Notes under the pieces: model-generated
The model's database searches: none
What the model was told of the DNA's origin: nothing
Seen by the model: the letters and a program-made list of their open reading frames with translations, nothing else
Program-made: the position numbers and the translations under genes
Shown: positions 961 to 62,145 of the stretch, in pieces
Position numbering within the stretch: the stretch's first letter is position 1
Layout of the letters: each line of letters begins with the position of its first letter
DNA from: Anaerolineaceae bacterium
Lineage (GTDB): Bacteria; Chloroflexota; Anaerolineae; Anaerolineales; Anaerolineaceae
DNA length: 64,000 nt
Direction: 5' to 3'
Assembly (NCBI GenBank): GCA_002702705.1
Contig: PABH01000036.1
Location: 1-64,000, forward strand

Positions 961-1935
961 ATGGAAAAACGAAAAAAAATAAAAGACTATAATCCATTTC
1001 AAATTGCATTGATCATTTTTGTAGTGCTTGTTTTGGTTGCGCCATTAATTATGCCATTACCTCCGTTAGAAGGAATTCAACCGGTTGAAGAATTAATGTA
1101 CACGGATAGCCAATTTTTAACACTAGATAACATTGATGTTCATTATATTGAGGCAGGAGAAGGGGATGAGACCTTCATTCTCTTGCATGGTTTTGGAGCA
1201 AGTACATACTCATGGCGAAAAATAATGCCTGAATTATCAGATTATGGAAAAGTAATTGCGTATGATCGTCCTGCTTTTGGGCTTACAGAACGAATTATCA
1301 ATGTGAGTACTTATGAATTAAATCCATATTCGTTAGAATATCAGGCAAAACTATTAATTAATTTGATGGATCATAAAGGTATCCAATCCGCTGTTCTTGT
1401 TGGGAACTCGGCAGGTGGGACTGTGGCAATTTATACAGCAAGCCAATACCCTGATCGGGTATCCAAATTGATTCTGGTTGATCCAGCAGTTTTTGCTGGG
1501 GGTGGTATGCCTGGTTGGGTAAAATTTGCTTTTGGTTTACCACAAATTGACCGTCTTGGCCCAGTATTTGTGCGATCAATTCAAGAAAGAGGTTTGGAGT
1601 TGTTAAAGTTAGCCTGGTATGATGAACAGAAAATCACAGAAGAGGATTTAGCCAATTATCAACTTCCGTTAAAAATGGAAAATTGGGATATCGGTTTATG
1701 GGAATATACAAAGGTGAACGGAAATTCAAATATGGAATCTTATTTATCAGGTTTAAATCTACCGGTATTGGTAATTAGCGGTAAAGAAGATCGTTTGATC
1801 CCTGTAGAAGACAGTATTCAAGCTGCTGAACAGATCCCAAATGCCAGTATATCCATTCTTGCTTCTTGTGGTCATGTTCCACAAGAAGAGTGTCCACAAA
1901 AATTTATGGCTGAGGTCAGTAAGTTTATTCAATGA
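961..1935 (+). CDS. Membrane-anchored alpha/beta-fold hydrolase
   Basis: A serine hydrolase of the alpha/beta fold with unknown substrate. Residues 14-33 form one hydrophobic segment after a Lys/Arg-rich start, so the catalytic domain is probably anchored and faces outward. HGFG at 76-79 is the oxyanion region. GNSAGG places the nucleophile at Ser150, and Asp277 (GKEDRLIP) and His305 (CGHVP) complete the triad. A lid-like insertion lies between about 185 and 245. Length 324 aa is typical. It sits 8 bp after the glycosylase gene and 12 bp before the selenoprotein gene, so the three look like one operon, though no functional link is evident. Similar sequences are often annotated as haloperoxidase or epoxide hydrolase, which cannot be decided here. 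Confidence 0.85.
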   Translation: MEKRKKIKDYNPFQIALIIFVVLVLVAPLIMPLPPLEGIQPVEELMYTDSQFLTLDNIDVHYIEAGEGDETFILLHGFGASTYSWRKIMPELSDYGKVIAYDRPAFGLTERIINVSTYELNPYSLEYQAKLLINLMDHKGIQSAVLVGNSAGGTVAIYTASQYPDRVSKLILVDPAVFAGGGMPGWVKFAFGLPQIDRLGPVFVRSIQERGLELLKLAWYDEQKITEEDLANYQLPLKMENWDIGLWEYTKVNGNSNMESYLSGLNLPVLVISGKEDRLIPVEDSIQAAEQIPNASISILASCGHVPQEECPQKFMAEVSKFIQ

Positions 1936-1947
1936 GAGGATGTTATT

Positions 1948-2424
1948 ATGGGAAAAAAATTAATCAAAGAAGGAACTGTTGCACCGGATTTTAAATTGGA
2001 AGATACAAACGATAACCCTGTCCAATTATCCCAGTTTCGTGATAAAAAAATCATAGTTCTGGTTTTTAATCGGGGTTTTTCTTGACCATATTGTAAACAA
2101 CATATGGCGCAGTTGCGTCAAGACTATGAAAAATTTACCGAATTAGGTGCTGAAATACTAACGTTAGGTCCTGATGGTCCGCGGGCGTTCAAGCGTTATT
2201 GGGAAGAGAATGATATTCCTTATATTGGCTTAGCTGATATCAAATCAAAAATTGCAGACTCTTTTTCACAAGAAGTAAACCTTTTTAAATTGGGCAGGAT
2301 GCCTGCCTTGTTTGTTATTGATAAAGAGGGGATTATTCGATACGCACATTATGGGGATTCGATGTCAGATATTCCTGAAAATTCTGAAGTTCTTGAAGTG
2401 ATTAAACAAATAAAATCTGATTAA
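1948..2424 (+). CDS. Peroxiredoxin-like selenoprotein (UGA46 = selenocysteine)
   Basis: An AhpC/TSA-type thioredoxin-fold peroxidase. Reading from ATG 1948 (AGAGGA at 1935-1940, 7 nt spacing) the frame is intact to TAA 2424 except for one TGA at 2083-2085, codon 46. The surrounding protein reads NRGFS-U46-PYC49-KQHMAQLR, where this family normally has a Cys in a RGxxCPYC motif. The part before the TGA carries the family's N-terminal features (GTVAPDFKLED, then IIVLVF), so both halves belong to one 158-aa protein. A hairpin with GU in its loop starts 20 nt after the TGA. Annotation software that treats TGA as stop would report only a fragment from 2104. Co-translational Sec insertion is the best explanation; it needs selA, selB, selC and selD elsewhere in the genome. 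A nonsense mutation is the alternative. Confidence 0.85.
2105..2120 (+). promoter_or_regulatory. Bacterial SECIS-like hairpin
   Basis: Six base pairs (2105-2110 with 2115-2120, including one G-U) close the four-base loop AGUU at 2111-2114. The loop begins 25 nt after the TGA at 2083-2085. This fits the known bacterial SECIS pattern: a small hairpin immediately downstream inside the coding region with a G or GU at the start of the apical loop, which SelB recognises. The hairpin also codes for conserved-looking residues (MAQLRQ), so its structure is compatible with protein function. Confidence 0.65.
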
Positions 2425-2428
2425 ATAA

Positions 2429-2460
2429 AAATCCTCCCTTATTGATTTAAGGGAGGATTT
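2429..2460. terminator. Bidirectional terminator between selenoprotein gene and eno
   Basis: A 13-bp perfect stem (2429-2441 with 2448-2460) around a 6-nt loop, with TCCTCCCTTA as its GC-containing part. It lies between convergent genes. A T-run follows the stem on the minus strand and the plus side ends in TTT, so it can serve both transcripts. Confidence 0.85.
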
Positions 2461-58732: not shown

Positions 58733-59884
58733 ATGAAATTTTTAATTGTACTTACATATTACAGACCCCATATCTCCGGATTAACGATTTATGCTGAATT
58801 ATTAGCCAAAGCATTGGTAAAACGTGGACATCAGGTTACAGTGTTAACAAGCCGCCATGAAAAAAATTTGCCATTACAAGAAATGGTTGAAGGTGTTCGA
58901 ATTGTCCGGGCTCCAGTTTTGCTGAAGATTAGCAAAGGCGTTATTATGCCGACATTTGGTTTGTTGGCAACGCAATTAATTAAAGAACATGATATTGTAA
59001 ATATACATCTACCTCAATTTGATTCGGCTGTAATATCCGCAGTGGCGAAATTGCAAAAAAAACCATCGATAATCACTTATCACTGTGATCTGATTATGCC
59101 GCCAGGTTTCATTCCCTGGCTCGCAAATCAGTCAGTGTTGATGATGAATCATATTGCGGGGTTATTAACAGACCGATTAATTACGTATACGCAGGACTAT
59201 GCAGATCATTCCCCATTCTTAAGCAAGTTTAAAAAGAAAGTACATATTATTTCACCGCCAGTTGATCTACCCGAAGTAACCAGCGAAGAAGTTTCAGAGT
59301 TTAAGAATAAAACAAATCCAAAAAACAATCACCCTGTAATCGGTATGGCTGTTCGTTTTGCCACTGAAAAAGGAGTTGAAGTGGTAATTGATGCATTGCC
59401 ACAGGTTTTAGAAAAATTTCCACATGCGCAACTTCAGTTCGCTGGCCCTTACAAAAATATTCGGGGTGAAGAACAATATGCTGAACGTTTAATGCCAAGA
59501 ATTCGAGCGTTTGAAAAAAGTGGCAATTGGCGTTTTTTAGGCCCTTTAAGCCATAAGGAAATGGCATTGTTTTATCAAAATATCGATGTTGTTGTTTTAC
59601 CAAGCTTAAATGCAACAGAAGCTTTTGGATTAGTCCAGATAGAATCGATGATTAGCGGGGCTCCTTCAATTGCATCCGCCCTTCCAGGTGTGCGGCAGCC
59701 AGTTTTACGACATGGAATGGGTAAAGTTGTTCCGATAGGAGATTCTAATGCATTGGCAGCAGAATTAATTGATATATTTTCCGACCCTCAAGCTTATCAG
59801 AAAGACCGTTATTTGATTGAAAAAACGTATCTGCCAGATACAATTGCTCAAGCTTATGAAAATTTATATGCTGATTTGATTTAA
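58733..59884 (+). CDS. Family 4 glycosyltransferase
   Basis: A 383-aa GT-B enzyme. The N-terminal half has the acceptor-side pattern YYRPHISGLTIYAELLAKALVKRGHQVTVLT, the C-terminal half the donor-binding motif EAFGLVQIESMISGAPSIAS with the EX7E-type pair. It builds a surface polysaccharide or glycolipid with a nucleotide-sugar donor, perhaps GDP-mannose (manC) or CDP-tyvelose from the neighbour. The protein looks cytoplasmic or peripheral, with no membrane segment. The gap of about 60 bp to the next gene holds no gene. Confidence 0.92.
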   Translation: MKFLIVLTYYRPHISGLTIYAELLAKALVKRGHQVTVLTSRHEKNLPLQEMVEGVRIVRAPVLLKISKGVIMPTFGLLATQLIKEHDIVNIHLPQFDSAVISAVAKLQKKPSIITYHCDLIMPPGFIPWLANQSVLMMNHIAGLLTDRLITYTQDYADHSPFLSKFKKKVHIISPPVDLPEVTSEEVSEFKNKTNPKNNHPVIGMAVRFATEKGVEVVIDALPQVLEKFPHAQLQFAGPYKNIRGEEQYAERLMPRIRAFEKSGNWRFLGPLSHKEMALFYQNIDVVVLPSLNATEAFGLVQIESMISGAPSIASALPGVRQPVLRHGMGKVVPIGDSNALAAELIDIFSDPQAYQKDRYLIEKTYLPDTIAQAYENLYADLI

Positions 59885-59955
59885 TTTGATTTCACCATCG
59901 CCAAAATTGATTTTGATAAGTTTATGCAAAAATTAAAGGATGGTTGATTACCTTA

Positions 59956-62145
59956 ATGAATGAACCCACTGTTTTAGATTATGTAAAAGCTAAACTATTT
60001 CCCTGGAAGTACTCAATGATTGCTTTTGAAGCAGAAGGGGATGAGCATGAAAGACCAGTTTCTGAAGAACTATTAGATTTGGAACCTGATCAAGAAGGCG
60101 CTGCTTATAAAAAAACTGTGGAATTACAAAAGAACAAGACCAACATTTATCGGAATATTGGTCCATTTCGATTGGCGGGAGCCTTAATCTTTGCTATTGC
60201 TGCCCAAATATTTTTAGATAATCCAAATAATCGGCATATTGGGATAGCTGTTATATTGTATGCTTTGAGTGCAGTTTTAACCCTGTGGGCAATTTTTAGT
60301 GATGAATGGAAAAGCGAATTTAACCAATCCAAAGTAGGAAAGTTTAGCCAACTTGATACAGGTAATAATCGTTTGTATTTATTGGGTACTGGGGTGTTAT
60401 TTTTAATTATTTCCTATTTTGCGTTTAAAGGAAATCAATTCACGGGTTTTAATCTTACGTTGTGGGGGATTACTTTAACGTCTTTTGTTCTTGCTTTTTA
60501 TGACAAACAATCTATTGGCTTCAGATGGAAAAAAATTAGACAGATTCTAAGTGATAAAAAGTTAAACATAACGATCACTCCCTGGATTTTTGTTTTGTTT
60601 TTTGTTTTTCTCATCACTTTCTTTTTTCGGTTTTATCGTTTGGATAGTGTGTTAGGAGAAATGTTCAGCGACCATGCCGAAAAATTATTGGATGTATCTG
60701 ATGTTTTAATGGGGGATACAAAACTATTTTTTCCAAGAAATACGGGACGTGAATTTATTCAATTTTATTTAACCGCATTTGTATCCATCATTTTTGGCAC
60801 AGGACTTTCTTTTTTGAGTTTGAAAATTGGAACGGCATTGGCTGGATTCTTTACCTTACCTTATATTTTTGCTTTGGGTAAGGAAATTGGAAACAAACGA
60901 ATCGCTTTATTTGCTGTATTTTTTGCTGGCATTTCGTATTGGGGAAATTTAATTTCCAGAGTGGGCCTGCGATTTCCGTTATACCCTTTATTTGCAGCCC
61001 CGACACTTTTTTATGTTATTCGAGGATTGCGCCAGAAAAGACGGAATGATTTTATTTATGCTGGAATTGCACTTGGTTTAAGTTTACATGGATATAGTTC
61101 AACTCGGTTCTTGCCGTTTGTCATTGTATCTATTTTTCTTTTATATTTATTGCATACCTGGCGAGAGGGTAATAAACAACAGGTTATTTTTGTTTTTATC
61201 ATCTTGGTACTGGTAAGTATTGTGTTATTTACGCCGCTTTTTTCTTATTTAACAGAAGATCCCAGTATTGTGCTTGGAAGATCTCTATCTCGTCTGACCA
61301 GTTCCGAACGCGCTTTTCAGGAACCACCGGCTTTGGTATTTTTTAAGAATCTCAAGGACGCCTTGTTGATGCCTTTTTTGGATAATGGAAATACTTGGGT
61401 GCACTCAATTCCACAGCGTCCTGCATTAGATATTATTAGTGCAGCCTTATATTTTCTTGGGAGTTTATTTGTTTTTATTCGGTACCTAAAGCAAAAAAAT
61501 TGGGAAGACATCAGTTTGTTACTCTCAGTACCATTATTAATGATGCCTTCAATACTTTCATTAGCTTTTCCTGAAGAAAATCCCAGTTTAAATCGAACAA
61601 GTGGTGCGATTATCCCTGTTTTTATTCTCGTAGGGATTGGGATGGATGGGGTATTTTCCAATTTGTGGAGAAATGCCAAACAACGGATAGGAAAAATTAT
61701 TTTGGTTGGGTTTGGTTCAGGAATTTTAATTGTTTCTTCTTTATTAAATTATGACCTCGTATTTACCCAATTTCACGATAATTACATGCGTAATGCTTGG
61801 AATACTACACAAATTGGTGAAGTAATTCATGGATGGTCAGTTTCTACCGGAAACAAGGATTATGCGTACGTTGTTCCCTACCCCCATTGGGTGGATACTC
61901 GATTGGTAGGGATTAATGCTGGTTACCCAACCAAGGATTACGCTCTATGGCCAGATCGATTTGAAGACACCTTGATGATTAAAGATGCAAAATTATTTAT
62001 TTTAAAACCGGATGATTCTGAAGCATTAATAAAACTTCAAAATCTTTATCCTCAAGGCATATTAAATATTTTTGATTCAGGCAGAGAAGGAAAAGACTTC
62101 TATATTTTTGAAATTCCGGCTGAGTCTTCTTTTTTACGACAATAA
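59956..62145 (+). CDS. GT39-like membrane glycosyltransferase
   Basis: A polytopic GT-C enzyme of about 729 aa, with some 11-13 hydrophobic helices and a mainly soluble N-terminal stretch (about 1-65) rich in charge, unusual for the class. The region with FYRLDSVLGEMFSDHAEKLLDV (about 225-250) corresponds to the first external loop where GT-C enzymes carry their acidic catalytic residue. Such enzymes use polyprenyl-phosphate sugars outside the membrane. Start is uncertain: TTG 59944 is 3 bp after AAGGA (too close), ATG 59956 is 15 bp away (far); I give the ATG. A second GT39-like gene follows 17 bp on. Confidence 0.8.
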   Translation: MNEPTVLDYVKAKLFPWKYSMIAFEAEGDEHERPVSEELLDLEPDQEGAAYKKTVELQKNKTNIYRNIGPFRLAGALIFAIAAQIFLDNPNNRHIGIAVILYALSAVLTLWAIFSDEWKSEFNQSKVGKFSQLDTGNNRLYLLGTGVLFLIISYFAFKGNQFTGFNLTLWGITLTSFVLAFYDKQSIGFRWKKIRQILSDKKLNITITPWIFVLFFVFLITFFFRFYRLDSVLGEMFSDHAEKLLDVSDVLMGDTKLFFPRNTGREFIQFYLTAFVSIIFGTGLSFLSLKIGTALAGFFTLPYIFALGKEIGNKRIALFAVFFAGISYWGNLISRVGLRFPLYPLFAAPTLFYVIRGLRQKRRNDFIYAGIALGLSLHGYSSTRFLPFVIVSIFLLYLLHTWREGNKQQVIFVFIILVLVSIVLFTPLFSYLTEDPSIVLGRSLSRLTSSERAFQEPPALVFFKNLKDALLMPFLDNGNTWVHSIPQRPALDIISAALYFLGSLFVFIRYLKQKNWEDISLLLSVPLLMMPSILSLAFPEENPSLNRTSGAIIPVFILVGIGMDGVFSNLWRNAKQRIGKIILVGFGSGILIVSSLLNYDLVFTQFHDNYMRNAWNTTQIGEVIHGWSVSTGNKDYAYVVPYPHWVDTRLVGINAGYPTKDYALWPDRFEDTLMIKDAKLFILKPDDSEALIKLQNLYPQGILNIFDSGREGKDFYIFEIPAESSFLRQ

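Follow-up and report, generated by a model that had tools for sequence, protein, structure and literature searches.

An in-frame UGA almost certainly read as selenocysteine in a peroxiredoxin-like UxxC protein of an Anaerolineaceae bacterium

Peroxiredoxin-like (Prx-like) selenoproteins with a thioredoxin-like UXXC motif in place of TXXU are described in the passages on which we draw from the Sargasso Sea paper (PMC1088965). The corresponding passages of a 2006 survey (PMC1794560) count eight 'Prx-like thiol:disulfide oxidoreductases' and three selenoproteins in Chloroflexi, the latter without names, while those of the GOS paper split the Prx-like group into several UxxC subfamilies. The UxxC/UxxU family (PF00578) is tabulated in the parts seen of reviews from 2022 and 2026 (PMC9312934, PMC13188914). 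A terms-limited search of the open-access literature found no title on the gene in Anaerolineae. Here, we analyzed a 64,000-nucleotide stretch of an Anaerolineaceae genome (the window), in which a gene at 1948..2424 on the forward strand encodes a protein that, judged by its sequence, appears to fit the UxxC selenoproteins published from 2005-2006 onward as 'Prx-like thiol:disulfide oxidoreductases'. The Prx-like domain, UxxC for TxxU, UGA-coded selenocysteine (Sec), and a bacterial host are all matched by the published descriptions. It differs in belonging to a Chloroflexota lineage that is mostly Sec (73/92 homologues in a phylum-wide sample) and whose main subtype has a SECIS of nearly invariant sequence. 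Almost certainly, the in-frame stop is translated as selenocysteine, and the product is then a small redox enzyme of a selenoprotein type already known.

The window lies on contig C38 of a 5.9 Mb host genome (74 contigs, 96.8% complete). Translation confirmed the frame proposed in an earlier note on this DNA: it runs from ATG 1948 to the TAA stop at 2422-2424, encodes 158 residues, and is interrupted only by TGA at 2083..2085, which is codon 46 in the context RGFSUPYC. Reading on in the frame places the UxxC partner residue, Cys49, at 2092..2094, and U46 and C49 are the sole Sec or Cys residues in the protein. Table 11 lists a single ORF of at least 50 aa in this frame, the 106-aa one at 2104-2424, exactly the fragment that the note had expected of standard annotation. 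Its two claims about the upstream half also held up. Inspection identified a Shine-Dalgarno-like GAGGA at 1936..1940, 7 nt before the ATG, and codons 10-45 align with the homologue L038 at 24/36 identical residues, compared with 73/104 for codons 47-150. Of the three codon positions, position 3 has the most differences from L038 on both sides of the TGA, and A or T occupies 115 of the 158 third positions in the window gene. The read-through protein matched PF00578 (AhpC/TSA) at 96.6 bits (cut-off 26). No NCBIfam model reached its own cut-off for this protein; the best match, to the SelL-related redox proteins (NF040769), scored 72 bits against a cut-off of 120 and covered only residues 12-101. 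SelL itself has UxxU.

An alpha/beta hydrolase gene on the same strand (961..1935) ends 12 nt before the selenoprotein start, with a TGA stop at 1933-1935, and is a possible operon partner. On the other side, a 13-pair hairpin at 2429..2460 separates the selenoprotein gene from a convergent enolase gene, with a terminator score on the reverse strand only. The neighborhood is loosely kept. Among 48 loci, which include two that carry the same gene (L041 and L067), single-linkage clustering placed ORFs of the UDG cluster in 10, the enolase cluster in 10, and an upstream ORF of the hydrolase similarity cluster in 8, the window included.

We searched the host genome and 60 relatives for homologues, taking matches at E up to 1e-20, and found 44 of them in 35 of the 61 genomes. 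Codon 46 is TGA in 40 and TGC in 4 (L066, L151, L152, and L160), so that the alignment the earlier note had called for returned Sec or Cys at this codon and nothing else, rather than the random stops or frameshifts it had named as contrary evidence. All 46 rows of alignment A2 carry Sec or Cys at position 46, 45/46 have C49, and 39/46 keep R117; six rows gapped at R117 come from one paralogue group (L153-L159). L066, with Cys at 46, is without C49. The internal TGA is therefore more than chance, since both halves of the frame align with homologues and 40 of 44 have the TGA at this very codon. This bears on the reading of TGA as a true stop, in a pseudogene or through sequencing error, with the downstream half perhaps made from ATG 2104. 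The 106-aa ORF is all that table 11 yields, and a further stop, TAA at codon 107, interrupts the gene of one relative (L176), as such a reading would have it. Against it stand the occurrence of the TGA across many genera, protein-like constraint on both sides of it, and a constrained hairpin 3' of it; we regard a true stop as very improbable, and a chance stop or pseudogene is ruled out by TGA conservation and the alignment of both halves. L176 (G316) is itself a Sec homologue, and its in-frame TAA, inside the domain, reflects either a recent pseudogene or a sequence error. Sec encoded by UAG or UAA was also considered and rejected: among 12 extra TAG/TAA stops, 11 fall at the usual C-terminal end (codons 154-158), one is internal (L176), and none is at codon 46.

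Wider samples gave a similar picture. From 400 Chloroflexota genomes drawn evenly across the phylum, 73 held 92 matches at E up to 1e-25, more loosely defined than those above, and the remaining 327 had none at that threshold. Codon 46 was TGA in 73 of these rows, Cys in 13, and Ser/Thr in 6, and those six resemble ordinary S/TxxC peroxiredoxins. Among the best 80 of 288 matches in a GTDB scan, there were four further close Sec rows (L067-L070, with L067 identical in sequence to L041) and a distant one from an Acidobacterium MAG (L101); no TGA was seen at codon 46 in the other 75. The close named matches among those 80 are Ornatilinea apprima (L067), an Ignavibacteriae MAG, and an Anaerolineales MAG. 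L104 and L140, also in this set, are peroxiredoxin relatives with the TGA aligned at position 49, the place of C49, and are thus of the TxxU kind. The Ignavibacteriae copy (L068, on a 9-kb contig) is 63% identical, with the same hairpin and with UDG and enolase cluster neighbors, and represents either a transfer or a misbinned contig. L070, from an Asgard group archaeon MAG, is a UxxC homologue with TGA and with the bacterial hairpin not present; a structure folds 3' of the gene, where an archaeal-type SECIS may lie. Asgard archaea have a Prx-like selenoprotein according to the portion of the literature seen, and L070 may be that protein. Several genomes of the family also carry a second Sec paralogue group (L153-L159, NIGFxUxHCTNHMAQLR) with the same hairpin letters. 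On the tree, Cys requires at least three changes and the Cys rows are nested among Sec rows; as the tree is midpoint-rooted with weak deep forks, the direction of the Sec/Cys change is something we infer only.

All four genes that the earlier note had proposed to look for are present in the host genome: tRNA-Sec (selC, 72.4 bits, cut-off 47) with anticodon tca (UCA), selA (537 bits, cut-off 268), selB (377 bits, cut-off 242), and selD (362 bits, cut-off 125). The host selD has an in-frame TGA of its own, in SSCAGU (L034:1342-2475, G000:C22, reverse strand), a usual Sec form of SelD. A further candidate selenoprotein is a peroxiredoxin with TPIU (TGA) and a C-terminal glutaredoxin domain (L021:1504-2235; G000:C9, about 59250-59980). 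Together with the window gene, this brings the genes with UGA at plausible Sec sites in the host genome to three. Across the 61 genomes, selA was found in all 33 that have a TGA row, over the cut-off in 31, compared with 15 of the 28 genomes lacking one (Fisher p 3e-4, a statistic that ignores relatedness). Two genomes have a Cys row only: in G051 selA had no match, and in G037 it is split into two pieces. The latter genome nevertheless holds a distant Sec paralogue, L178, found in the phylum sample, so its Sec machinery may work.

The full set of Sec genes speaks against UGA being read as Trp or Cys here, through a reassigned code or near-cognate read-through with no selenium involved. That Cys is the other residue at the site in close homologues is what such a reading would lead one to expect. 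TGA also serves as a stop, given that the upstream hydrolase (1933-1935) and many of the homologues end in it, and a reassigned code would not freeze a hairpin solely in TGA genes. On these grounds, we consider insertion of another residue scarcely credible, and reassignment specifically is ruled out by the machinery, the ordinary TGA stops, and the hairpin. The note's central proposal, that UGA46 is decoded as Sec, is supported by the machinery, by the TGA/Cys pattern among homologues, and by a SECIS-type hairpin 3' of the UGA.

This hairpin, at 2105..2120 on the forward strand, reads UGGCGC-AGUU-GCGUCA, with six pairs and the loop at 2111-2114. Its first paired base is nt 20 past the UGA, and it has bacterial SECIS form, namely a stem-loop that lies within the coding region shortly 3' of the UGA and whose apical loop (AGUU) includes a G. 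Frozen silent sites, pair counts, and compensatory changes all point to it. Codons 54-57 are close to fixed across 43 distinct Sec genes, with GCG in 39/42, CAG in 37/37, TTG in 38/41, and CGY in 40/41, compared with 24, 58, 20, and 53% for the same codons elsewhere in these genes; binomial values for these codons assume independent rows. The window gene uses GCG CAG TTG in the hairpin despite A or T at most of its third positions. None of 15 Cys rows kept the codon set, most of these rows belonging to other subtypes and three (L066, L151, and L152) to the window's own. For the consensus UGGCGC-AGUU-GCGYCA, 95.0% of cells pair in the 43 distinct sequences. In a set of 78 Sec sequences, 91.9% of cells pair and all six pairs show a change on both sides, while slid controls reached 60.3% pairing at most. 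None of 500 shuffles of these 78 rows reached the covariation score, and shuffle control (a) gave 0/500 for four measures and 1/500 for a fifth. The 78-row set is not a random one, and of the 31 phylum Sec rows outside it, the five inner pairs formed in 9. In three relatives, the protein is altered at R57 to C (L177) or A54 to T (L192 and L202), and compensating base changes keep the hairpin. The energy of the window hairpin (z -2.1) is weak on its own; the minimum-energy fold of 2080-2135 differs and does not include it, single-row folds vary, and Rfam at gathering thresholds reported nothing at the site. A genome scan with model R1 gave 66.6 bits at the window site and no more than 21 bits anywhere else, so no other site in the host genome shares the element closely. 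The hairpin behaves as expected of a bacterial SECIS.

To see how far this signal extends, we read 109 Sec rows and sorted them by the residues after the site: 69 are xQLR, the window's subtype, 23 xRxR, 11 xQLG, and 6 others. The five inner pairs form in 72/109, of which 68/69 are xQLR, 3/23 xRxR, 1/11 xQLG, and 0/6 the rest. A hairpin common to all 109 rows was looked for and not found. The AGUU loop is present in 67/69 xQLR rows. The xQLG rows, which are distant Sec paralogues (L178, L180, L181, L206, L207, L230-L232, L234, L235, and L239), keep AGUU at the same distance in 11/11, on what single-row folds depict as a shifted stem of CCC-AGUUG-GGG type. When compared with synonymous recodings of nt 18-38, the xQLR rows had a median z of -2.5, the xRxR rows -0.4 (-0.37), the xQLG rows -1.5, and the rest -1.2; at most 10 of 200 recodings were as stable in 36/69 xQLR rows, and the Cys groups were near 0. 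The 23 rows of the sister subtype xRxR (ARxR after the site; L061, L148, L189, L194, L198, L211, L213-L223, and L225, among others) thus showed no unusual stability at the hairpin's place. With the extra 31 rows, the SECIS claim is confined to the window's subtype, and the case for the window gene is unaffected. A broader reading joins these observations: an old, Sec-dominant Chloroflexota subfamily whose protein is governed by the RNA signal, so that A-Q-L-R would owe its conservation largely to the SECIS that its codons form, the distant A-Q-L-G would keep AGUU on a different stem, the Cys forms would be secondary losses of Sec, and xRxR would use a signal of another kind. Taken as a whole, we hold this reading tentatively, at slightly under an even chance.

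We predicted the fold with AlphaFold2 on 46 sequences, Cys replacing Sec (pLDDT 94.8, pTM 0.91). The nearest solved folds were Bcp4 of Sulfolobus (Z 24.3, rmsd 1.7, 153 residues aligned) and AhpE (Z 24.0, rmsd 1.7, 152 aligned), which are ties. Beyond this fold, at Z about 24, the window protein resembles peroxiredoxin Q/Bcp and AhpE in having C49 at the Cys of 2cx3, and differs from them in having Sec/Cys, not Ser/Thr, at 46 and no other Cys. The T/SxxC(U) peroxidatic motif of peroxiredoxins proper is not found in the protein, which has UxxC. The Sec-peroxiredoxins (TxxU), of which the host's own TPIU-glutaredoxin protein is a copy, differ in having Sec last in the motif rather than first, and that copy is a fusion. 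Profile alignments placed U46 at the first Cys of a ResA variant and at a Ser of 2cx3. The earlier note had placed codon 46 at the catalytic Cys of the family; this stands for CxxC oxidoreductases such as ResA and fails for true peroxiredoxins, which have Ser/Thr at 46 and their Cys at the C49 place. As a refinement, U46 is the counterpart of the nucleophilic Cys of CxxC oxidoreductases, and the peroxidatic Cys of true peroxiredoxins corresponds to C49.

We are highly confident in a 158-residue selenoenzyme of Prx fold working in the following way. SelB with Sec-tRNA would bind the SECIS hairpin right after UGA46, and selenocysteine would be inserted. The selenolate of Sec46, placed in the U-P-Y/F-C motif directly ahead of a helix, would attack an oxidized substrate (peroxide or disulfide), Cys49 would close a selenenylsulfide with Sec46, and a thioredoxin-type donor would reduce it. 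The frame, the recurring UGA, the full Sec machinery, the conserved hairpin, and the predicted fold come from computation, whereas we infer Sec incorporation itself as well as the substrate, the electron donor, and the chemistry. An alternative keeps the Sec protein and makes it a peroxidase of Bcp/AhpE type, in which C49 attacks and Sec46 resolves. It is favored by the alignment of C49 with the Cys of Bcp/PrxQ enzymes and by the retention of R117, near whose position peroxiredoxins presumably keep an active-site Arg. The alignment of U46 with the first Cys of the ResA CxxC, which is the nucleophile there, tells against it, as does the selenolate being the stronger nucleophile. We consider attack by C49 unlikely and prefer attack by U46, with C49 closing the selenenylsulfide, as the simplest mechanism. 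The sequence does not discriminate between peroxidase and disulfide-reductase activity.

The gene belongs to a well-supported group of Chloroflexota selenoproteins that table-11 gene calling shortens. Its sister subtype xRxR, with the hairpin missing at that place, raises a concrete question about the Sec signal. Sec copies are many, Cys copies are few, and the SECIS is clear enough to support covariation analysis, so the family offers a good test case for how an RNA signal in a coding region constrains the protein.
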